A stretch of 48,714 bases of DNA from an uncultured Clostridia bacterium (GTDB taxonomy: Bacteria > Bacillota > Clostridia > Oscillospirales > Acutalibacteraceae), in NCBI GenBank assembly GCA_946186665.1, contig CAMHOE010000016.1, positions 1-48,714 of the forward strand, written 5' to 3'. A model generated the notes under the pieces. That model saw nothing but the letters and a program-made list of their open reading frames with translations, did not search any database and was not told the DNA's origin. This document shows, piece by piece, positions 4,601 to 48,147 of this stretch (its first letter is position 1; each line of letters opens with the position of its first letter). A program made the position numbers and the translations under genes.

Positions 4601-6260
4601 TAACTCTACTATCTCTGCGACCACAGTAAAAGTCGGTGAAGAGATCACAGTTAATGCCGCAGCTTCCGGCGGTGAGGGCAGTTATACTTACTGTGCAGCA
4701 TATGTTGACGAAGGTCAAAACTCTGTTGTTGTACAGAACTATACTTCTAACAATATAATCTCCTTCAGTATAAATAACGCCGGCGAATACACAGTTTATG
4801 TCATTGTCAAGGACAGCAACGGAAATGTTTCTGAAAAGTCCTTTGACATAACCGTTGAGCAGAAGGATGAGCTTGTAAACAACTCAGGTATGTCCTCAGA
4901 CTCAATAACACTGGGCGATACTGTAACGCTTACAGGCGCAGCAGCAGGCGGCACAGCTCCTTATAAGTACGCTTACTATTACAAGAATTCCACAGACAGC
5001 AAATACACCACACTTAAGGGCTATTCCACCACAGACACGGTATCCTTCACTCCCACAGAGACAGGTACTTATTCTGTTGTTATTTACACAAAGGACAATG
5101 ACGGTACAATAATGAAAAAGACCTTTAAGCTCACTGTTAAAAATGTTGCTCTCGTAAATAATTCTAAGCTTTCCGCAGACTCCATCAATCTTGGCGGCAC
5201 CGTTACAATTACCGGTGAAGCAGCAGGCGGCACAGCTCCTTATAAGTACGCTTACTACTATAAGAAGTCGACCGACAGCAGCTACACAACAATTAAGGGC
5301 TTCTCCGAAACAAGCACAGTATCTCTTGAGCCAACAGAAGCAGGAAGCTACATTGTTGTTGTTAAGGTAAAGGACAATGCAGGCACTATTGCAAGAAGTG
5401 AATATACTCTTACAGTTGCAAACGCTGCCCTTGCAAACAACTCTGAGCTTTCTTCTGAAAAAATCGCTCTCGGCGGCACCGTTACTATAACCGGTGAAGC
5501 AGCAGGCGGTACAGCTCCTTATCAGTATGCTGTTTATTACAAGAATTCCACAGACAGCAAATTCAGCACACTGCAAACCTATTCAGCCGCAAATACAGTT
5601 ACCTTCCAGCCCACAGAGACAGGAACATATTCTGTTGTTGTTTATGTAAAGGATAATAACGGCGCAACAGTAAAGAAAACAATGAAGCTCACTGTTGAAA
5701 ACGCTCTTACAAACACCTCTGAGCTTTCTTCTGAAAAAATCGCTCTTGGCGGCACTGTTACAATAACAGGTAAAGCAACAGGCGGCACAGCTCCTTATCA
5801 GTATGCTGTTTATTACAAGAATTCCACAGACAGCAAATTCAGCACACTGCAAACCTATTCAGCTACAGATACAGTAACCTTCAAGCCCACAGCGACAGGA
5901 ACATATTCTGTTGTTGTTTACGTAAAGGATAATGACGGCACAACAGTAAAGAAAACAATGAAGCTCACTGTAGAAGACGCTGCTCTTACAAACACCTCGA
6001 AGCTTGCTGCTGCATCTATCGCACTTGGCAGCTCCGTGAAAATCAAAGGTTCTGCAACAGGCGGCACAGCTCCTTACCAGTATGCTTTCTATTACAAGAA
6101 TTCTACAGACAGCAAATTCACCACACTCAAGAGCTATTCTTCTACAGCTACAGTATCCTTCAAGCCCACAGCAGCAGGAACCTACTCTGTTGTTGTATAC
6201 GTAAAGGACAATGACGGAACAATAGTAAAGAAAACACTTAAGCTCACAGTAACTGAATAA
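1693..6260 (+). pseudogene. Secreted BspA-like LRR / Ig-like repeat protein, frame-disrupted
   Basis: Start ATG 1693 with GAAAGGAG about 10 bases upstream. The intact protein would have ~1,522 residues: a signal peptide (KKRKLMRKVFAAALAVAMVG, Ala-rich, ASA cleavage region), a ~100-residue N-terminal part, many LRR_5 repeats of about 23 residues (pattern AFYGCTSLSSLTLNSGLQTIG), then eight ~92-residue beta-sandwich modules to the C-terminus. Two lesions break it. One base appears to be missing from an A-run at 2047-2049 (restoring AAAA gives KFKTLSLPSKLQAITGG), and TGA stands in frame at 2463-2465, between HGTFE and ASSLYKITIKG. Homology resumes in frame on both sides, so these are recent mutations or sequencing errors. 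There is no LPXTG or dockerin; it is probably secreted or bound non-covalently. Family function (adhesion or substrate binding) is inferred. Confidence 0.8.
4035..6257 (+). repeat. Eight tandem ~92-residue Ig-like modules
   Basis: Each module starts with a (V/T/A)NNS or TNTS sequence, followed by S(I)xLGGTVTITG, A(T)GGTAPYxYAxYYK, a TDSKxTTLxxYS turn and a final GTYSVVVYVKDNDG strand. Modules 6 and 7 are nearly identical at the DNA level, which indicates recent duplication. The first module follows the last LRR directly. Such arrays act as stalks or ligand-binding spacers on secreted proteins; the ligand is unknown. Confidence 0.8.
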
Positions 6261-7417: not shown

Positions 7418-7612
7418 GTAGTGGTCAGTGATTAGTGGTCAGTGGTCAGTGTTAAGCCCAAAGTTCAATGCGAACCGAAGTTCACATTAAACCTACTATA
7501 TTTCGTTTTCGCGAAACGAAAACGTACCACTATTATTCATTTTTCAGTTTTAAGTTTTCAGTATTCATTATTTCTATTTCCACTTTCCACTTTTCACATT
7601 CCACATTTTATA
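7418..7612. repeat. Intergenic repeat island: heptads and palindromic element
   Basis: Units of AGTGGTC type occupy 7422-7455. A palindrome of the TTTCGTTTTCGC / GCGAAAACG type follows (about 7494-7530, here partly degenerate), then a tail of about eleven heptads of the TTCNNNW type that drifts in sequence but keeps a 7-bp phase up to the stop codon of the next gene at 7613. No gene is supported here. Confidence 0.75.
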
Positions 7613-12123: not shown

Positions 12124-12372
12124 GGCAAAGTCCTGTCATTAACTTAAAGTCTTTTCGTGCTGCCTTGCGGCAGCAGAGGTACTTCGTTATGACCGCTACA
12201 AGGGGAAGCCCTCTTCCAGGGCTTCCCCTCTTCAAAAACAGTCCACAGGACTGTTTTTGAATTCACCCCATTCCGAGGGATTAAAAAGGGGATTTCGCCG
12301 TCTGCGGACGGCGACCAGGGGCTCTGCCCCATGGACCCCGCAGCCTTTGAAAAGGCTGGCGAAACTTTATTT
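12124..12372 (+). repeat. Multi-hairpin repeat, copy 1 of 3
   Basis: A ~245-bp element made of consecutive stem-loops: GCTGCC/GGCAGC, GGGGAAGCCC/GGGCTTCCCC, AAAAACAGTCC/GGACTGTTTTT, CCGTC/GACGG, GGGGCtctGCCCC and GCCTTT/AAAGGC, ending GCGAAACTTT. Copies 2 (about 19332-19563) and 3 (about 24730-24977) share order and most sequence. An open frame on its minus strand (12144-12332) exists only because of the repeat and is not called as a gene. Confidence 0.85.
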
Positions 12373-16054: not shown

Positions 16055-16308
16055 AATATAATGGAATTAATGAATACTGAAAACTTAAAACTGAAAAATG
16101 AATAATAGTGGTACGTTTTGCTAAAGCAAAACGAATTATAGTAAGTTTTCCTGTACTCAGCTTTACTCCAAGCCGCAGGTTCCGTACGCAGACCCCTCCG
16201 GCACATCAGCCGACTCCCCTTTCATGGGAGACTTTGAGCTTTGGGCTTTGGGCTTTGAGCTTTGAGCTTTCCATTACACATTGCTAATTGCACATTTTAC
16301 ATTATACA
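16055..16308. repeat. Repeat island upstream of the permease: palindrome plus heptad array
   Basis: On the minus strand a CGTTTTGC/GCAAAACG palindrome with a drifting heptad tail (about 16055-16147) leads into the permease start. Next come CTCCCC/GGGGAG-like stems (16146-16228). From 16229 to 16312 an unbroken run of about twelve heptads starts as AGCTTTG units and changes to CATTNNA units without losing phase, ending at the hydF stop. No gene is supported. Confidence 0.75.
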
Positions 16309-17517
16309 TCATTCCGGCTGATTTAACAACTGTTGTATTTCGGGAAATGGCGCGAGACTGCGTTTAAGGATACCGTTCATGTATGCAATGGCTGTACCGT
16401 AGTTCGTGATGGGCACTCCTTCGTCCTCTGCGCATTTAAGACGATACTGCATTTCACGTTCATTCAGCATACAGCCGCCGCAGTGTATTATCATACTGTA
16501 TTTTTTAAGCTCCTCAGAAAATTCCGTTCCTGATGTCCATACAAAATCTATATCCTTGCCTGTGTATTTTTTTATCAGCTTCGGGAGCTTTACAGTGCCG
16601 ATATCATCACACTGGCGGTGATGAGTACAGCCCTCCGAAATAAGCACCTTGTCTCCGTCATTGAGTCTGTCAAGTGCTGTGACTCCCGATACCGCAAGAC
16701 GCAGATTTCCCTTGTAGTTTGCAAAGAGAATAGAAAATGATGTGAGCATAATATCCTCAGGGGTCAGCCTGCTTACCTCTGCAAACGCCTGACTGTCGGT
16801 TATCACAAGACGGGGCTTTTCTTTAAGTGAGCTTAAGGTTCTTTCAAGCTCCGTTGTCTGAGTCACCATACAGACTGCATGAGCGTCAAGTATATCCCTT
16901 ATGGTCTGCTGCTGCGGAAGTATAAGCCTGCCCTTTGGCGCAGCGCTGTCAATAGGCGCAACAAGGACAACAACATCCTTTTCGCTGAGCATATGGGATA
17001 CGATATGCTTATCATTCTGTATATCCTTTGCCTGCCTTGCGATAAGCTCTTTAAGCTCATGAATATTCTCGCCTGTTTTTGCGCTGACACATATCTCGTT
17101 TTCAGACACAGCCGCATGACTGCTTATATCCGTCTTGTTATAGGCAATTACATATGGGATATTCTTTTTCACTATTTTTTCCAGCAATGCCTTATCCTCA
17201 TCTGTAATGCCCTTGACAGCGTCCACAACAAGAATGGCAACATCTGTTTTATTCAGCACCTGATAGCTCTTTTTTACCCTGAGTCCTCCAAGCTCGCCTT
17301 CGTCATCTATGCCCGGTGTGTCGATTATCACAACAGGACCCAAAGGCAAAAGCTCCATAGCTTTAAGTACAGGGTCGGTGGTAGTACCGAGAACATCAGA
17401 CACTATGGCAAGCTCCTGCCCTGTTACTGCGTTTACAACACTGGATTTTCCTGCATTTCTTTTTCCGAAAAACGCAAGATGAATTCTGTCTGCACTGGGC
17501 GTACTATTCAAGCTCAT
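16309..17517 (-). CDS. hydF: [FeFe]-hydrogenase maturation GTPase HydF
   Basis: A 402-residue protein, the usual length for HydF, the scaffold that assembles and delivers the 2Fe subcluster to apo-HydA. The N-terminal GTPase domain has G1 GKRNAGKS (residues 18-25), G3 DTPG and G4 NKTD. A dimerisation domain follows. The C-terminal cluster-binding domain shows the family ligands: CTHHRQC (CxH) and HCGGC (HCxxC) near residues 300-353. It is the last gene of the maturation group transcribed TM1266-hydE-hydG-hydF; a repeat island of about 270 bp lies between it and hydG. The ATG has a GGGGGAGGA ribosome binding site placed directly after the tail of a palindromic repeat. Confidence 0.97.
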   Translation of the reverse strand: MSLNSTPSADRIHLAFFGKRNAGKSSVVNAVTGQELAIVSDVLGTTTDPVLKAMELLPLGPVVIIDTPGIDDEGELGGLRVKKSYQVLNKTDVAILVVDAVKGITDEDKALLEKIVKKNIPYVIAYNKTDISSHAAVSENEICVSAKTGENIHELKELIARQAKDIQNDKHIVSHMLSEKDVVVLVAPIDSAAPKGRLILPQQQTIRDILDAHAVCMVTQTTELERTLSSLKEKPRLVITDSQAFAEVSRLTPEDIMLTSFSILFANYKGNLRLAVSGVTALDRLNDGDKVLISEGCTHHRQCDDIGTVKLPKLIKKYTGKDIDFVWTSGTEFSEELKKYSMIIHCGGCMLNEREMQYRLKCAEDEGVPITNYGTAIAYMNGILKRSLAPFPEIQQLLNQPE

Positions 17518-17525
17518 TATAATCC

Positions 17526-17789
17526 TCCCCCTATATAAAATTAGTGAATAGTGAATAGTTGTGGTGCGTTTTCGCTTAAGCGAAAACGAATTATAGTAAG
17601 TGTTGTAAAGAATTACAACTGCATCCGCCGAGTGGAAACCTCTCCGTCATTAATTCACTCCTTGAATTAACAGCGCAGTTCTGTGTGAACCAAAGCCTCC
17701 ACTGAAAGAGGAGGCTTTGGCTTTGATCTTTGAGCTTTGATCTTTGAACTTTCCACTAACCACTAACCACTAACCACTAATCACTAAAA
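17526..17789. repeat. Repeat island between hydG and hydF
   Basis: Minus orientation: a TTCGTTTTCGC/GCGAAAACG palindrome with an ATTCACT-type tail runs up to the hydF ribosome binding site (17526-17603). A segment shared with 21345-21390 (GCAGTTGTAATTCTTTACA) and a GAGGCTTTGG hairpin follow. From 17716 to 17788 about ten heptads pass from CTTTGAT to CTAACCA units in constant phase and end at the hydG stop codon. Confidence 0.75.
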
Positions 17790-19244
17790 TCAGAACCTGA
17801 AATCTCTCTTGCCCTGTTCCTTGATTTCTTTAAGGTAGTCCATGGCACGCTGACGGCGTTTTTCATCGGGAACATTAAGTATCTCACGGGCAATAAGCTT
17901 CTCGCCTATTTCCTTTGTCTCCTCAGATGCGTAGTCCGTCAGGAATTCCTGAAGGGTCATAAGCGCGTTCGGGTGACAGCAGTTCTGTATCTGTCCCACC
18001 TTGCACAGTGCCATAAAGCGGTCGCCGGTCCTGCCCTCACGATAACAGGCAGTACAGAATGAAGGAATGTAGCCAAGCTTCATCAGCCATCTTACGACCT
18101 CGTCCAGTGTGCGCTGGTCGGAAACATCAAACTGTTCCGTATCGTGAGGTCTTTCATCAGCGCTGTAGCCTGCATATCCGCCTACGGAAGTTCTTGAACC
18201 GCCGGATATCTGGGACACGCCCAGTCCTATCACCTTGTCACGGCACTCTTCGCTTTCTCTTGTGGATATTATCATACCTGTATATGGTACTGCTATTCTG
18301 ATACAGGCGATTATCTTTGCAAAGGTATCGTCATCAATACCGTTGTCAAAAACACTGGGGTCAATGTCTGACGCACGTTTTATTCTCGGTATGCTTATGG
18401 TATGGGGACCTACTCCATGAACTGCTTCAAGATGCTCTGCGTGCATGAGTATGCCTGCAAACTCGTATTTGTACATTTCCAGTCCGAAAAGCACACCCAG
18501 ACCCACATCATCAATTCCGCCTTCCATAGCTCTGTCCATAGCTTCTGTATGATAAGCATAATTGTGCTTTGGTCCTGCGGGATGAAGAGCTTCATAGCTT
18601 TCCTTATGATATGTCTCCTGAAACAGTATATATGTTCCGATACCGGCTTCTTTGAGCTTTCTGTAGTTTTCTACGGTGGTAGCGGCTATATTTACATTGA
18701 CTCTGCGTATCGCACCGTTTTTGTGCTTTATGGAATATATGGTCTTGATACATTCCAGAATATATTCTATGGGATTATTTACAGGGTCCTCGCCGCTTTC
18801 TATGGCAAGACGCTTATGTCCCATATCCTGCAAAGCTATGACTTCCTCACGGACCTCATCCTGAGTGAGCTTCTTTCTGGGTATCTCCTTGTTCTGGTAG
18901 TGATACGGACAGTATACGCATTTATTCACACAGTAGTTTGAAAGATACAGCGGCGCAAACATTACTATTCTGTTGCCGTAGAAGGCTTCCTTTATCTCTC
19001 GTGCCAGTGAGTACATTTTCTCGTTCAGCTCGGGGATATCGCACGCTAAAAGCACACTCGCTTCCCTGTGGGAAAGACCTGCACATTCAACGCCTCTGCC
19101 TGTCTTTTTAGGCTTTGCCTTTTCAAGTATCTGCTCGATAAGCTCAACATTGTGCTTGTTTTTCTCGGCATATTCAAGAGTTTCCAGTATTTCCTCGTGG
19201 TTTATAAATTCCTCCGCTTTAAGCGATTTCGGGTCATAATTCAT
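17790..19244 (-). CDS. hydG: [FeFe]-hydrogenase maturase HydG (radical SAM tyrosine lyase)
   Basis: A 484-residue radical SAM enzyme that cleaves tyrosine to give the CO and cyanide ligands of the H-cluster. The SAM [4Fe-4S] motif CX3CX2C is at Cys105, Cys109 and Cys112 (YCVNKCVYCPYH). The C-terminal auxiliary cluster motif CX2CX22C is intact (FCTACYREGRTGD, then QNCCHPN), which separates HydG from the related thiazole enzyme ThiH. Length and both motifs are canonical. It lies downstream of hydE, separated from it by a 424-bp repeat island, and upstream of hydF. It has its own GGAGG ribosome binding site (GGAGGAAAAACAAA-ATG). Confidence 0.97.
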   Translation of the reverse strand: MNYDPKSLKAEEFINHEEILETLEYAEKNKHNVELIEQILEKAKPKKTGRGVECAGLSHREASVLLACDIPELNEKMYSLAREIKEAFYGNRIVMFAPLYLSNYCVNKCVYCPYHYQNKEIPRKKLTQDEVREEVIALQDMGHKRLAIESGEDPVNNPIEYILECIKTIYSIKHKNGAIRRVNVNIAATTVENYRKLKEAGIGTYILFQETYHKESYEALHPAGPKHNYAYHTEAMDRAMEGGIDDVGLGVLFGLEMYKYEFAGILMHAEHLEAVHGVGPHTISIPRIKRASDIDPSVFDNGIDDDTFAKIIACIRIAVPYTGMIISTRESEECRDKVIGLGVSQISGGSRTSVGGYAGYSADERPHDTEQFDVSDQRTLDEVVRWLMKLGYIPSFCTACYREGRTGDRFMALCKVGQIQNCCHPNALMTLQEFLTDYASEETKEIGEKLIAREILNVPDEKRRQRAMDYLKEIKEQGKRDFRF

Positions 19245-19668
19245 TTTGTTTTTCCTCCGTTATGATATACAGCGGTCAAGATTCTTTATACTATTAAACG
19301 ATAAACAAGTAGATAAGAAAATATAAAGGTTAGGGCAAAGCTCCAATGTCATTTACTTAAGTTTTTCGTGCTGCCTTACGGCAGCGGGGAGTTTCGTTAT
19401 AACCGCTACAAAGGGAAGCCCTCTTCAAAAACAGTCCACAGGACTGTTTTTGAATTCACCCCATTCCGAGGGATTAAAAAAGGGGATTTCGCCGTACCCC
19501 AATGGCACTTCCTACGGGCGCCCACGTCCCCCGCAGCCTTTGAAAAGACAGGCGAAACTTTATATTTCTTACACTTTTTTTTCGATATTAGTTTTACTAT
19601 AATCGTTTTCACTTCAGTGAAAACGCACCGCCATTATTCATTTTTAAGTTTTAAGTTTTCAGTATTCA
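19245..19668. repeat. Repeat island between hydE and hydG: multi-hairpin copy 2 and palindrome
   Basis: Bases 19332-19563 are copy 2 of the multi-hairpin repeat, lacking about 20 bases of the second stem-loop, as expected from slippage between CCTCTTC repeats. At 19590-19668 a palindrome variant (CGTTTTCACT/AGTGAAAACG) with a TTTTAAG/TTTTCAG heptad tail follows and ends at the hydE stop codon. No promoter or gene is convincing; the hairpins may terminate or process the hyd transcript. Confidence 0.75.
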
Positions 19669-20736
19669 TTAATACTTCGCATGGTCTCCTCTGTTTACAA
19701 CGACATTGTAGCCTATTGATTTCATGCGCAGCTGCAAACAGTTTTTACATTCGGCTGCTTCGTCTCCGGTGCATATTTTGTTGTCATAGATCATATATTT
19801 TTTCCTTACGGCAACAGGCGATAAATTCGGCATTACAACATTTGCGCCTGCAAGTATCCCTTTTTCTCTTCCAAGGGGATGTATAGTGCCAAGCGCTGTT
19901 GTTGACGGCAGCAGAACATCGGGAAGTGTAAGTCTGATAAGTCCCAGCATGAACAGCGTCTGCTCCAGAGTGCCGCTTGCTTTATCCGCAAAGGGTGTGT
20001 CATGCTGAGGGATAAAGGGTCCTATACCCACCATATGCGGTTCAAGCTCCTTTATAAAAAGCATATCCTCTGCAAGGTTCTGCGCAGTCTGGAAGGGCGA
20101 ACCCACCATAAATCCGCAGCCTGTCTGATAGCCTATTTTTTTCAGGTCCATGAGACAGCGCTTGCGGTTTTCGGGAGACATATTCTCAGGGTGAAGCTTT
20201 CTGTAATGGGAATTATCCGCCGTTTCGTGCCGCAAAAGATATCTGTCAGCACCTGCGTCGAAATAAGCCTTATATTCGCCATAGCTTTTCTCACCCACCG
20301 AAAGAGTAAGCGCACAGTCGGGATAAGCTGCTTTTATCTCCCTGATGATCTCAATAAGTCTGTCCGCTGTAAAATACGGGTCCTCTCCCCCTTGCAGTAC
20401 AAAGGTACGAAAACCAAGCTCGTGACCGGTCTTGCAGCATTCCAGTATCTCAGACTTGCTCAGCCTGTAACGCTGAGCATTTTTATTTCCGCAGCGGATA
20501 CCGCAGTACAGACAGTCGTTTTTGCAGTAGTTTGTAAACTCGATAAGTCCCCTGACAAAAACATCCTTGCCATAGTATTTTTCCCTGATACGTCTTGATT
20601 TCTCAAAAAGATACTCAGACACCTGCGGTGTGAAGCTTTCTATAAGGTACGCATATTCATCCTTTGAAAGCACCGATTTTTCCTCAAGCTTATCTATAAG
20701 GCTGAGGAGTTCAGTATTATTATCATGTTCTGTCAT
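19669..20736 (-). CDS. hydE: [FeFe]-hydrogenase maturase HydE (radical SAM)
   Basis: A 355-residue radical SAM protein involved in making the organometallic precursor and dithiomethylamine bridge of the H-cluster. The CX3CX2C cluster motif is at Cys71, Cys75 and Cys78 (FTNYCKNDCLYCGIRCGN). The BioB-like barrel motifs FVLQGGEDPYF and GFMVGSPFQT are present. The C-terminal half has GPFIPQHDTPF, characteristic of HydE, and ends with cysteines (CTGDEAAECKNC) that may hold the second cluster. It starts two bases after the stop of the TM1266-type gene, so the two are translationally coupled. Confidence 0.97.
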   Translation of the reverse strand: MTEHDNNTELLSLIDKLEEKSVLSKDEYAYLIESFTPQVSEYLFEKSRRIREKYYGKDVFVRGLIEFTNYCKNDCLYCGIRCGNKNAQRYRLSKSEILECCKTGHELGFRTFVLQGGEDPYFTADRLIEIIREIKAAYPDCALTLSVGEKSYGEYKAYFDAGADRYLLRHETADNSHYRKLHPENMSPENRKRCLMDLKKIGYQTGCGFMVGSPFQTAQNLAEDMLFIKELEPHMVGIGPFIPQHDTPFADKASGTLEQTLFMLGLIRLTLPDVLLPSTTALGTIHPLGREKGILAGANVVMPNLSPVAVRKKYMIYDNKICTGDEAAECKNCLQLRMKSIGYNVVVNRGDHAKY

Positions 20737-21249: not shown

Positions 21250-21468
21250 AATAGGTATGTAAAATCAGCTTAAAGTTCAAAGACTGAAGCCTCCCCTTTA
21301 GGGGAGGTGTCAAAAATTTACAAAGTAAATATTTGACGGAGGGGTTTCCGCTCGGCGGATGCAGTTGTAATTCTTTACAGCACTTACTATATTTCGTTTT
21401 CGCCTTTGCGAAAACGCACCACAACTATTCACTATTCACCATTCACTATTCACTAATTTTATTATAGG
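21250..21468 (+). repeat. Repeat island upstream of the M3 peptidase
   Basis: CCTCCCCTTTAGGGGAGG hairpin (21290-21307), AAATTTAC/GTAAATATTT stem, a GACGGAGGGGTTTCCG segment, then at 21388-21456 a TTTCGTTTTCGC/GCGAAAACG palindrome with about five ATTCACT-type heptads. The tail stops just before the peptidase ribosome binding site, the same arrangement as in front of hydF. Confidence 0.8.
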
Positions 21469-23420: not shown

Positions 23421-23500
23421 TCGTTCATGGGTGCCGCCGTGATCTCGCAATACATATTCAGCACGAGCTTACAAGATTATTTTTAAGCTCAGAAAGATAG

Positions 23501-23583
23501 GGCTTTGGACTTTGAGCTTTGAGCTTTGAGCTTTGAGCTTTAAGCTTTGAGCTTTGGCTTTGAGCTTTGAGCTTTGAGCTATA
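23501..23583 (+). repeat. Heptanucleotide tandem array (TTTGAGC units)
   Basis: About eleven copies of a 7-bp unit, AGCTTTG and variants (GACTTTG, AGCTTTA), with one copy short by a base. It ends 5-10 bases before the ribosome binding site of the methyltransferase gene, so it forms most of the 5' leader. Confidence 0.9.
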
Positions 23584-23599
23584 TTACATGGAGGGAATT

Positions 23600-24729: not shown

Positions 24730-24985
24730 CAACAGCTCGCCAATGTCATTAACTTAAGGTTTTTTGTTGCTGCCTTGCGGCAGCAGGGGAACTTCATCAT
24801 GACCGCTACAAGGGGAAGCCCTCTTCCGGGGCTTCCCCTCTTCAAAAACAGTCTACAGGACTGTTTTTGAATTCACCCTATTCCGAGGGATTAAAAAGGG
24901 GATTTCGCCGTACCCCAAGGACACTTCCTACGGGCGTCCACGGAACCCGCAGCCTTTGAAAAGGCTGGCGAAACTTTTGTTATTG
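24730..24985 (+). repeat. Multi-hairpin repeat, copy 3 of 3
   Basis: Same order of stem-loops as at 12124: TTGCTGCC/GGCAGCA, GGGGAAGCCC/GGGCTTCCCC, AAAAACAGTC/GACTGTTTTT, then the variant segment TACCCCAAGGACACTTCC (shared with copy 2 and with 28590-28615), GCCTTT/AAAGGC and GCGAAACTTT. It fills the gap between the methyltransferase gene and dnaE. Confidence 0.85.
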
Positions 24986-28549: not shown

Positions 28550-29154
28550 CTCCAGCGCAAGGCTTGCACACCCGATTCACGTTGGCGTTCGTACCCCAAG
28601 GGCACTTCCTACGGGCGCTAACGCTCACTCTGTTTAGTCTGACCGAACATCTTCCTGCCCGCGATTGACGGCGGCGCAAGGCTTGCGCTCCCGATTCGCG
28701 TTGGCGTTCGCTTGCGCTCACTCTGACAATATAACCGAAACTTCATTGTCCTCGATTGACGGCGCAGACTTGTGAGACAATATTCCCCATCCGCCGGCGC
28801 AGGCTAAGAGCCTGCTGTTTCGGCTGTTTTCTCCGGACATATAGTTTCTTTCCCTCCTGAACTTTATGCGCCTGTGCAGTTTGAAGTTGTAGTTTATATT
28901 ATACTTACTATATTTCGTTTTCGCTTTAGCGAAAACGCACCACAACTATTCACTATTCACTATTCACCATTCACTATTCACTATTTCCGCTCCCTGAGGA
29001 GCGCGACGCGGACGGTTCGATAAGAAGCAGATGCGTTCTAAGTAGTCCAGTGCGGTCACGCACCGACGCGGACGGTTCAATAAGAAGCTGATGCGTTCTA
29101 AGTAGTTCAGTGCGGTCACGCACCGTTGCTAAGTTGTCCAGTGCGGTCACGCAC
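28550..29154. repeat. Large mosaic repeat island between dnaE and the ABC ATPase
   Basis: It contains two copies of the CGATTCGCGTTGGCGTTCG / GCTCACTCTG module (about 28575-28735), a CCGCCGGCGCAGGCT with GCCTGCTGTTTCGGCTG segment, a GGACATATAGTTTCTTTCC module (28838-28875), the palindrome TTTCGTTTTCGC/GCGAAAACG with ATTCACT heptads (28905-28985), and finally, on the minus strand, modules 1-4 of the composite gene-end element duplicated in tandem (28990-29154). Its first hairpin, GGTGCGTGACCGCAC, starts at the stop codon of the ATPase gene. No gene is supported. Confidence 0.8.
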
Positions 29155-40825: not shown

Positions 40826-40880
40826 TGTAGTGGAAAGTGCTTAGTGTTTAGTGGGCAGCAATTAATTCCACTTTCCACAT
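40826..40880. repeat. Heptad tract upstream of the subtilase
   Basis: Drifting heptads (AGTGGAA, AGTGCTT, AGTGTTT, then ATTCCAC, TTTCCAC) lie between the DUF218 stop and the subtilase start. Confidence 0.7.
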
Positions 40881-40892
40881 TTTTATAGAAAA

Positions 40893-41692: not shown

Positions 41693-41765
41693 GAGCCCGA
41701 AGCTCAAAACTCAAAGCCCGAAGCTCAAAGCTCAAAGCCCGAAGCTCAAAAACCTTCAACTCATT
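41693..41765 (-). repeat. Heptad array in the DUF218 leader
   Basis: About ten heptads of AAGCTCA/AAGCCCG type arranged as three 21-bp super-units, between the promoter (41768) and the start codon (41657). It will be the main part of the mRNA leader. Confidence 0.88.
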
Positions 41766-43187: not shown

Positions 43188-43980
43188 CACCTACGGTATA
43201 CAAAAAAATCGGAATTTTTCTACTTTTATTAATGTTAAATGCTTCTTATAATTAAAATGTGGAAAGCAAAATCAAAGAAAGATTTTCGACCTTTTGAGGT
43301 CGAATTATCCTGCTGTTTGCGGTCATATCAAGAGGAGCTGTATATCATCTCCCGAGAGACAAAGACGTCTGCGCCGGCAGTAACGGTAAGCGCCGCTGTG
43401 ACGGTGCGCCTTGCTGTAGGTAAGCGGACGCATATTTATTTCACATTCTCTTATGATAAGGCTGTACAGCGCAGAAGAGAATTTTCATTTATCGTGAAAT
43501 AAAGACATAGCGGATAATGACCTGCTTGTTCAGTCGGTTAATGCCCGAAGGCATGCTTGCTGTTCAGGTAAAGGTCATTACCGCGAAAAATATTCCGGCG
43601 GAGTTCAACGCTCTCGTTTTCTCCGCAGATATAAAGGATACGACTTCTCAATGGAGAAGAGCGTACCCTTTATTAAAGTGCGTTCTGATGAGTATTTTTC
43701 CCGGAATAACAAGAGTTTTTCCCGGAAAAACTATAATTAATCCCGGAAAAACTATACAAAGGAAAGTAAAAGAAAGGAAAGTAAAGGAAAGGAAAGTAAA
43801 GTGTGTAGGACAGAACTCCCCCTGAAGCTTCTGCTTCATCCGCTTACACAAAAACCGACCTGTACTTACACACACGTACCCAACAAAAATTATGGTTATT
43901 TTTATGATAAGCGAAAAATCCCCTACAGCTTTGAGCTTTATCTGACCACTTCCCACTAATCACTAACCACTAAATGGGCT
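43188..43980. other. Gene-poor 790-bp stretch with short repeats
   Basis: No recognisable gene. Open frames on the plus strand at 43239-43502 (87 codons) and 43517-43825 (102 codons) lack family resemblance and good ribosome binding sites. Visible structures: a TTCGACC/GGTCGAA hairpin (43285-43304); three partial copies of CCCGGAAAAACTATA (43700-43757); three 15-bp purine-rich units AAAGGAAAGTAAAGN (43758-43802); a GAAGCTTCTGCTTC palindrome; and CTAACCA-type heptads (43944-43975) ending at the ogg stop codon. It could be a decayed gene or a further repeat island. Confidence 0.5.
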
Positions 43981-46881: not shown

Positions 46882-47170
46882 CCTGTACAGTATGAAGTTG
46901 TAGTTTTTATTATACTTACTATGATTGTTTTCGCTGTGCGAAAACATACCACTATTATTCATTTTTCAGTCTTAAGTTTTCAGTATTCATTAACTCTTAT
47001 ATGCGCCTGTACAGTATGAAGTTGTAGTTTTTATTATACTTACTATGATTGTTTTCGCCTTTGCGAAAACATACCACAACTATTCACTATTCACTATTCA
47101 CTATTTCCGCCTCTCCTGAAATGGGAGGTGGCAAAAATTTACACAGTAAATTTTTGCCGGCGGGGTTTCC
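46882..47170 (+). repeat. Two adjacent palindromic elements with different tails
   Basis: Copy 1 (46914-46990): GTTTTCGC/GCGAAAAC with the TTTTCAG/TTTTAAG heptad tail. Copy 2 (47038-47104): the same palindrome with the ATTCACT tail. Both follow the module CGCCTGTACAGTATGAAG. A CTCTCCTGAAATGGGAGG hairpin and an AAATTTAC/GTAAATTTTT stem (47105-47160) match the island at 21290. No gene is supported. Confidence 0.8.
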
Positions 47171-47964: not shown

Positions 47965-48030
47965 CTCCTTATTCTTACAGATTTCGCTGTAATAATAAGA
48001 AGTAACAAAGCTTAGTATTATTATACAGCG
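47965..48030 (-). promoter_or_regulatory. Two-state expression platform of the THF riboswitch
   Basis: Two helices compete. Helix A pairs 48016-48030 with 47985-47997 (CGCTGTA...TACAGCG) and leaves the ribosome binding site free. Helix B pairs 47987-48002 with 47965-47980 and covers AAGGAG of the Shine-Dalgarno, with a six-base loop. The 5' strand of A shares bases with the 3' strand of riboswitch stem P1, so folate binding should favour B and shut off translation. The pairings are seen; the mechanism is inferred. Confidence 0.65.
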
Positions 48031-48147
48031 GGATGCAATTTGTGTATCGCAGGATGACCTTTTCGTTCACACGACAACTCCCCGTTCGTATGACACTACC
48101 CATCGGTTACTCACCGACACTTCGCACACAAATTTACTCTGCCCCTC
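48028..48147 (-). promoter_or_regulatory. Tetrahydrofolate (THF) riboswitch
   Basis: The leader of folT carries the THF class hallmarks in order: GGGGCAGAGTA, a stem AATTTGTGT pairing with ACACAAATT, an inner CATACGAACGGGGAG with TCGTGTGAACGAA segment (compare the known GAAUGGGAUGUCGU core), and TTGCATCCCGC at the 3' end. This aptamer class lies upstream of folT in many Bacillota. Length (~120 bases) fits. Confidence 0.85.

Follow-up and report, generated by a model that had tools for sequence, protein, structure and literature searches.

The 48,714-nucleotide (nt) stretch analysed here, contig CAMHOE010000016.1 of GenBank assembly GCA_946186665.1 (an uncultured Clostridia bacterium of the Acutalibacteraceae, order Oscillospirales, and a rumen-type relative of Ruminococcus), is hereafter called the window. 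Many of its intergenic gaps carry tandem arrays of 7-bp units. The original prediction for this DNA held that the unit sequence drifts along such arrays while the phase of seven is kept, and suggested that copying or selection acts on the period and not on the sequence. We label the unit families A (ACTATTC), B (TTTTCAG/TTTTAAG), C (CTTTGAG), D (CTAACCA), E (CATTGCA) and F (CCACTTT/CCACATT). The heptamer tracts are best explained as the ends, or arms, of non-coding elements that are dispersed between genes and organised around hairpins. The tracts at 16229-16312 and 17716-17788 each form the right end of a copy of the same dispersed composite element.

The first of these copies, at 17542-17788, has the order A, hairpin, core, C, D and fills nearly the whole gap between hydF and a hydG-like gene, whose product is a radical SAM protein with a BATS domain. 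It begins with a left heptamer arm, (GAATAGT)n, on the minus strand (17542..17560), followed by the hairpin CGTTTTCGC-TTAA-GCGAAAACG (17567..17588) of a dispersed hairpin element. At its other end a second hairpin, CCAAAGCCTC...GAGGCTTTGG (17690..17720), stands directly before the CTTTGA array, 2 nt from the array edge, and leads into the C-type array (CTTTGAT/CTTTGAG)n (17721..17752, plus strand) and the D-type array (CTAACCA / CCACTAA)n (17753..17788, plus strand), the latter in register with the C array and inverted with respect to the left arm at 17542..17560. The other copy, at 16064-16315, has the order B, hairpin, core, C, E and comprises a B-type array at its left end (16064..16109, minus strand), the hairpin CGTTTTGC-TAAA-GCAAAACG (16114..16133), a C-type array (CTTTGAG/CTTTGGG)n (16228..16273, plus strand) and an E-type, CATTGCA-like array (16274..16315, plus strand), which is separate and has its own register.

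The phase at unit switches was compared over 41 pieces of this genome (the window and 40 further stretches) and 12 further loci of the same genome. All five C to D junctions are in register, and the claim that phase is kept at 17716-17788 while the unit changes is thus borne out. The same had been claimed for 16229-16312, where it does not hold, since the junctions from CTTTGAG to CATTGCA in four copies have offsets of 4, 5, 6 and 6; in the absence of a fixed register across the four, the apparent continuity of this tract is that of two adjoining arrays. Nor does every unit stay at seven bases, as had been stated for 23501-23583: this C-type array (23498..23585, plus strand) has one internal phase break, its register being shifted by one short unit.

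Dispersed hairpin element and array length

The 41 pieces form our sample of the genome, amounting to 842,614 bp of 2,547,523 (33%). Twenty of the 40 stretches came from contigs matched by a query with the element and the other 20 were picked regardless of matches, though contig C4, among the contigs of the latter, has one match to the query. A-type arrays form the tail of a dispersed element in which a hairpin (CGTTTTCGC, loop, GCGAAAACG) is followed by ACCAC and then by the array. With 40 of 111 candidates scored, the genome has at least 41 long matches (60-87 nt) to this combination of hairpin and array, and the flanks vary among the 30 copies compared. Of the 30 pattern-matched hairpin copies in the sample, nine have a C array 76-160 bp further on, and these C arrays lead into E in five cases, into D in three and into neither in one. 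The elements look like non-autonomous mobile repeats.

The clearest evidence that array length changes by whole units comes from copies with an anchor at both ends. Between the hairpin side and a TTTCCG-like end, the arrays are 11, 18, 25, 32, 39, 46, 53 or 67 nt long, all of which leave a remainder of 4 on division by 7; 16 of 18 copies belong to this series, with one to nine units between the anchors. The count started from 29 matched rows, from which 11 without a right anchor were dropped, and of the two rows that break the series, one (L120) is a copy whose end has changed and the other has an anchor that matched unrelated sequence. These lengths bear on the possibility that the arrays are merely inherited ends of founder mobile elements, the 7-nt period being a frozen accident that needs neither slippage nor selection. 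Copies do share the hairpin and the core, and some array blocks, such as those at 7519-7578 and 16060-16119, are 97% alike between copies; yet unit number varies between copies in sevens, and period 7 is common to unit families that are unrelated to one another and come from different genomes; we regard this account as improbable.

The gap between the hydG-like gene and hydF could be followed in 37 relatives that have both genes within 1.5 kb. Its median length is 42 bp in these relatives as against 272 bp here, where it is occupied by the composite. Period-7 arrays lie in this gap in four of the 37 (L010, L022, L023 and L025), with the units AGTTAGG with CATTACG and AATGAGG/AGTGAGG, which are unlike those of the window, while arrays of period 5, 6, 8, 9, 10 or 11 were found at this gap in none of the 37. 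L022, L023 and L025 are alike and may represent one event, so that, counting them once together with L010, the same period with a different sequence arose here at least twice besides the window. Given the steps of seven and the other heptamers of other species at one orthologous gap, it is the period that recurs and not the sequence, and to this extent the original prediction stands. Its other parts fare less well: register is lost from C to E, the ends of dispersed hairpin elements had been missed, and unit families recur. Twenty-two unit classes are the commonest unit of some array in the first 442,614 bp of the sample, and a few come back often, namely the ACTATTC type (25 times), CCACTTT (11), TTTTAAG (8) and CCACTAA, CATTGCA and CTTTGAG (6 each), and the unit sequence is therefore not arbitrary.

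Period 7 in the genome and in related genomes

Tandem 7-bp tracts in many gaps, as had been reported, are real. In a test over 28 nt at 82% match, identity at lag 7 covers 446 nt of the window, as against 0 nt at lags 6, 8 and 9 and 42 nt at lag 5; multiples of seven follow (245 nt at lag 14, 187 at lag 21 and 61 at lag 28), and ten first-order Markov shuffles of the window gave 0 at each lag from 2 to 30 in the same test. Tandem Repeats Finder returned 42 rows for the window, 19 of them, some overlapping, with period 7. The sample holds 102 period-7 arrays, 83 of them intergenic in the sense of lying outside the open reading frames (ORFs) of a simple ORF mask. For periods 4, 5, 6, 8, 9, 10, 11, 12 and 13 the corresponding numbers of arrays are 0, 1, 6, 1, 13, 3, 3, 24 and 2, of which 0, 0, 0, 1, 3, 2, 3, 1 and 2 are intergenic. 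Period 7 thus dominates intergenic tandem repetition (83 arrays against at most 3), and the 20 stretches chosen regardless of matches agree: between genes they contain 13 period-7 arrays, and no other period from 5 to 13 has more than one. The excess over neighbouring periods that had been predicted is present in the third of the genome examined, as period 7 alone is raised between genes.

Of the eight tracts that had been listed by coordinate, seven are recovered at least in part by the 28-nt lag test, at 7420-7456, 7531-7573 together with 7576-7608, 17719-17791, 23498-23585, 41710-41750, 43946-43973 and, for 16229-16312, over its left part (16229-16273), the right part (16279-16315) appearing at a looser threshold; 40826-40880 was not called. 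The last consists, on reading by eye, of two short facing arrays, D-type then F-type (40826..40885). At 7420..7456 a D-type array on the minus strand (AGTGGTC on the plus strand) is the inverted partner of an F-type array, CCACTTT/CCACATT, at 7576..7608 (plus strand), and between these arms lies the B-type array of a hairpin element (7530..7573, plus strand). The array at 41693..41752 is C-type (AAGCTCA, minus strand) with a 21-bp super-period, and that at 43945..43973 is D-type (plus strand). Further arrays, all on the plus strand, are a B-type (19629..19673) and an A-type, (ACTATTC)n (21419..21458), each beside a hairpin; an A-type, (ACTATTC)n, of a hairpin element (28942..28989, hairpin 28916-28937); and, in hairpin-element copies, a B-type (46953..46993) and an A-type (47073..47113).

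Among 72 arrays assigned to a context, 54 lie between co-directional genes, 12 between convergent and 6 between divergent ones, the figures for all 403 gaps being 265, 75 and 63; divergent gaps are thus somewhat avoided (6 of 72 arrays against 63 of 403 gaps). This avoidance, and the very location of the arrays in gaps, would suit an account in which single heptamers are bound by a factor such as a translational regulator, a role suggested for the TAACTGA repeats of Beggiatoaceae, although the unit sequence differs between loci and the inverted arrangement of named families, described below, is left unexplained; we consider such a role very unlikely. Phase-variation switches acting on neighbouring genes are most improbable as well: unit number does vary between copies, but seven scanned neighbour proteins look ordinary (HydF, a radical SAM protein, an FtsX-like permease, a peptidase M3, a glycosyl transferase and others), and 83 of the 102 arrays are outside reading frames. 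An assembly artefact, which might be suspected as many of the genomes are metagenome bins, we hold to be extremely unlikely, since assemblies from several projects agree in showing arrays, with individual unit variants. Arrays are concentrated in the higher-GC3 part of the genome (Spearman 0.63 for density against GC3, 41 pieces); contigs C2, C3, C9, C11, C12 and C16 are rich in them, and C1, C4-C8, C10, C13 and C14 are poor. As regards a bias relative to the replication origin, the best DnaA match lies on contig C33, outside the sample.

Period 7 also leads among relatives, where comparison between species used one genome per species. In 1,219,723 bp of DNA surrounding hydF, made up of 80 loci that were taken from named genomes irrespective of arrays, period 7 occurs in 9 loci over 1081 nt, and periods 6 and 9 in 5 loci each over 174 and 214 nt. 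In 40 stretches from 15 genomes of six families of the order, picked for matches to such arrays, period 7 leads in each genome. With the window's own element as query, 32 of 99 relatives have matches, nearly all over the ACTATTC part only, and with a relative's element as query 40 of 295 genomes of the order do (30 of 148 genera), mostly over its ACTATTC arm only; both counts were made with the native units of the elements alone.

Several other features of the window fall outside these arrays. Another dispersed repeat of about 170-240 bp with the perfect hairpin TTCAAAAACAGTCCACAGGACTGTTTTTGAA occurs at 12134-12368, 19386-19561 and 24744-24977, the last copy having one change on each side region, and a 279-bp tandem repeat of 4.7 copies lies within a long reading frame (4932-6247). 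At Rfam gathering thresholds the sole match in the window is a tetrahydrofolate (THF) riboswitch (48024-48143, minus strand), with no group I intron; seven stretches of relatives, scanned at the same thresholds, gave tRNAs only, and a known RNA family was accordingly set aside as an account of the arrays. Terminators alone were likewise rejected, as there are 9 terminator-like sites against 7.7 expected between 16000 and 24000. Over the same interval 23 sigma-70-like promoter matches were seen as against 12.9 (sd 3.7) in shuffles.

Facing arms and a tRNA-linked family in relatives

Some families in the genome of the window have a fixed relative orientation. Within 300 bp, A and C arrays are inverted in nine cases and direct in none, A and D/F arrays inverted in four and direct in none, and D/F arrays inverted with respect to each other in eight and direct in three, the three direct pairs all coming from a row of copies in L112 that follow one another at intervals of about 190-205 bp. 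At the same distance A is inverted with E in 4 of 6 pairs, C with E in 1 of 6 and A with B in 0 of 2, the few other combinations having 1-3 cases. In relatives, among 36 neighbour pairs in the 40 stretches picked for such arrays, 22 are same-unit inverted and one is direct. Their mean duplex energy is -22.7, compared with -5.9 when one arm is flipped and -13.0 (sd 2.1) in 200 permutations, and by this measure the inverted arrangement is the better one in 31 of the 36. Elsewhere among the relatives, L200:4813-5059, L200:10288-10528 and L201:10272-10517 are GC-rich palindromic elements of about 245 bp whose outer ends are facing heptamer arrays.

Several of the inverted pairs stand immediately 3' of tRNA genes and belong to a tRNA-linked family. 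In array-rich relatives, 24 arrays within 150 bp of a tRNA gene are downstream of it and none is upstream, nor was an upstream case seen in any group of loci examined. Fifteen aligned copies share the layout tRNA, GAAACGCCCC, short local partner, first heptamer arm, GGGGCGTTTC, second heptamer arm; the alignment left out 2 of 14 initial sequences (L224, which is cut by a contig end, and L228) and added L206, L217 and L218. Over the two stems together 91.2% of 611 cells are paired, and sliding the alignment by 1-3 columns lowers pairing to 38-55%. The number of cells changed on both sides (16) and the covariation score were reached by none of 500 shuffles, which ignore relatedness. As the two stems cross, they are probably alternatives.

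A covariance model of the arm stem found the element in 13 of 20 genomes, chosen by us, and gave no match in the genome of the window. Strong copies, of at least 95 bits, numbered 49, of which 48 were examined (L266, cut by a contig end, was left out). A tRNA 3' end lies near 39 of the 48, at -3 to 0 nt in 38 of them and at 29 nt in one. Fifteen of the 48 had built the model (13 with a tRNA), and of the remaining 33, 26 have a tRNA. The nine without one comprise three second copies behind a first, four in which no tRNA is seen, one (G018:C77) whose last 12 bases match those of a tRNA-Met copy and one (G015:C155) with 81 bases of flank only. In two families of the order, tRNA genes of many kinds have this structured repeat starting at their 3' end; examples are L257:1501-1636, L260:1501-1635 and L264:727-861, with 45 further places, and it matched no Rfam family in the seven stretches scanned at gathering thresholds. 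None of the nine tRNAs in the sample of the window's genome has an array within 150 bp, and the tRNA-linked branch is therefore no direct explanation of the window; it illustrates what such arms are capable of in relatives.

The arm reading has to be weighed against a number of observations that tell against it. In the window's own genome, C with D/F arrays are direct in seven cases and inverted in five; same-unit neighbours (at least 6 of 7 bases, within 250 bp) are inverted in none and direct in six of 35 pairs; over all array types inverted pairing is better in no more than 20 of 35; and the mean duplex energy of -11.4, against -13.3 when flipped, makes the inverted arrangement no better. 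A-type arrays are mostly one-armed there, and an advantage of the sense strand relative to genes (14 of 21) is not significant, so that an RNA-strand preference was rejected. Given the same-unit counts and the overall 20 of 35, the arm reading applies in this genome to particular families only. Among the 72 arrays, 29 lie within 25 nt of a hairpin of at least 8 bp, as against 232 of 1440 random windows. In relatives, the tRNA-linked family alone supplies many of the 22 inverted pairs, and the stretches had been picked for ACTATTC arrays. In the covariation analysis, besides the shuffles' disregard of relatedness, the structure was taken from one aligned sequence, and the pairs with double changes (7 of 41) and the further pair types were reached by 55 and 63 of the 500 shuffles, respectively. 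The trait is patchy: when one stretch from each of 20 members of the genus was examined (241,732 bp in all), three had period-7 arrays, one of these three having been picked for matches, and three others had arrays of period 8, 6 or 9. L022 and L025 (82.6% identical over aligned DNA) have two arrays in common: the first has the same length in both and differs by one substitution, and the second differs in length by 8 nt and not by 7, so that this comparison gives no support for steps of seven. The search for a mobiliser covered the Y1 transposase family, in which it found a single gene interrupted by an in-frame stop and a fragment that scored below the cut-off, and a Y1 transposase was rejected as mobiliser.

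As a separate observation, the equal-length array of these two relatives (L022:8446-8488, L025:8436-8482) is palindromic and precedes a gene; the one substitution is its sole difference between them, and this near identity suggests constraint.

The main rival is plain simple-sequence slippage, according to which the polymerase tends to slip by 7 nt and arrays arise anywhere between genes with no structural role. It would agree with a literature proposal and with much of the above, namely that only period 7 is raised between genes, that other sequences occupy one orthologous gap, that lengths step by 7 and that no inverted excess exists over all arrays of the window's genome. It leaves unexplained the recurrent unit families, the fixed order and orientation of the named families, the 22-to-1 inverted pairing in relatives and the covariation, and we judge it unlikely, though by no means far-fetched. 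Copies with common anchors do lie in many gaps, their arrays vary by whole units, facing inverted arrays occur in the chosen relatives and one family covaries. We lean, if not strongly, towards hairpin elements, dispersed in the genome, in which slippage by 7 nt alters the arms and the pairing of the arms partly keeps the register.

In such elements the arms would gain and lose whole 7-nt units by replication slippage, while substitutions and block exchange would alter the units; paired arms would tolerate G-U pairs and short internal loops but not a shift of register. The register would persist because insertions and deletions come in sevens and pairing arms must stay in step, and a constant period with changing sequence would then follow from whole-unit slippage, unit replacement and the pairing of arms taken together. 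We infer the slippage, as we do the spread of the elements and any role as RNA. An extension that we put forward tentatively, and on balance doubt, is an order-wide class of heptamer-armed hairpin elements in which register is kept by the pairing of slipping arms and the unit sequence is replaceable, and whose tRNA-linked branch may form a two-state structured trailer of tRNA transcripts. In this putative trailer the first half of a terminator-like stem would have two competing partners, one close by and the other a distant copy lying beyond the first heptamer arm.

Known heptameric repeats and the question of the seven

Several aspects of these arrays have precedents. According to Mrazek 2007, as cited in PMC4679880 and PMC4692102, heptamers are the commonest class of long simple sequence repeats in most genomes studied; a proposal of Mrazek and co-workers, cited in the same two papers, is that slippage depends on a polymerase contact of 7 nt. 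The arrays described here share with such bacterial heptameric repeats a 7-nt excess that is mainly intergenic, but they are both degenerate and composite, and often belong to hairpin elements. A structural parallel, by the account in PMC4476775, is the P6b stem-loop of the Nostoc tRNA-Leu(UAA) intron, with the motifs TDNGATT and NNTGAGT, where degenerate 7-nt repeats form both sides of a stem of variable length and one motif class has given way to another with a similar structure. Stems built of heptamers, with 7-nt repeats pairing on both arms, were also found in the relatives picked for arrays; in contrast to P6b, which is one site in one cyanobacterial intron, the present arrays lie at many intergenic sites, belong to several unit families and occur in another phylum.

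The TAACTGA repeats of Beggiatoaceae, Cyanobacteria and Bacteroidetes (MacGregor 2015, PMC4679880) are described there as intergenic, with other heptamers mixed in and mostly 7-nt insertions or deletions between two Cyanothece strains; they differ from the arrays here, according to the same source, in having one dominant unit, often oriented to start codons. TAACTGA is not among the 22 commonest-unit classes of the first 442,614 bp of our sample. The GGGNATC and GGGGA(C/T)T repeats of Xanthomonas and Nostoc are, by the description in PMC4692102, dispersed, over-represented between genes and variable in length in related genomes; they are also described as G-quadruplex-forming with a preference for four units, whereas the units here are mostly A+T-rich.

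Miniature inverted-repeat transposable element (MITE)- and repetitive extragenic palindromic (REP)-type repeats are short, dispersed, palindromic and non-coding, as are the present elements, from which they differ in that the arms here are 7-nt arrays of variable unit number. Among the matches listed from a literature mostly without subscription journals, no paper dealt with heptamers in Ruminococcus or its relatives. What is already known thus includes the heptamer excess, the idea of 7-nt slippage, heptamer-built stems with a replaceable motif and mixed arrays with 7-nt insertions and deletions.

The cause of a unit length of seven in bacterial repeats is so far, in the accounts of PMC4679880 and PMC4692102, a guess about polymerase contact. 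A genome in which this period alone is raised between genes, an orthologous site at which the period is found with different sequences, and facing, covarying arms in relatives together make the question measurable, in the form of whether gains of units in one arm follow the other arm, and the tRNA-linked family offers a defined, repeated structure that is open to testing in a cultured relative.

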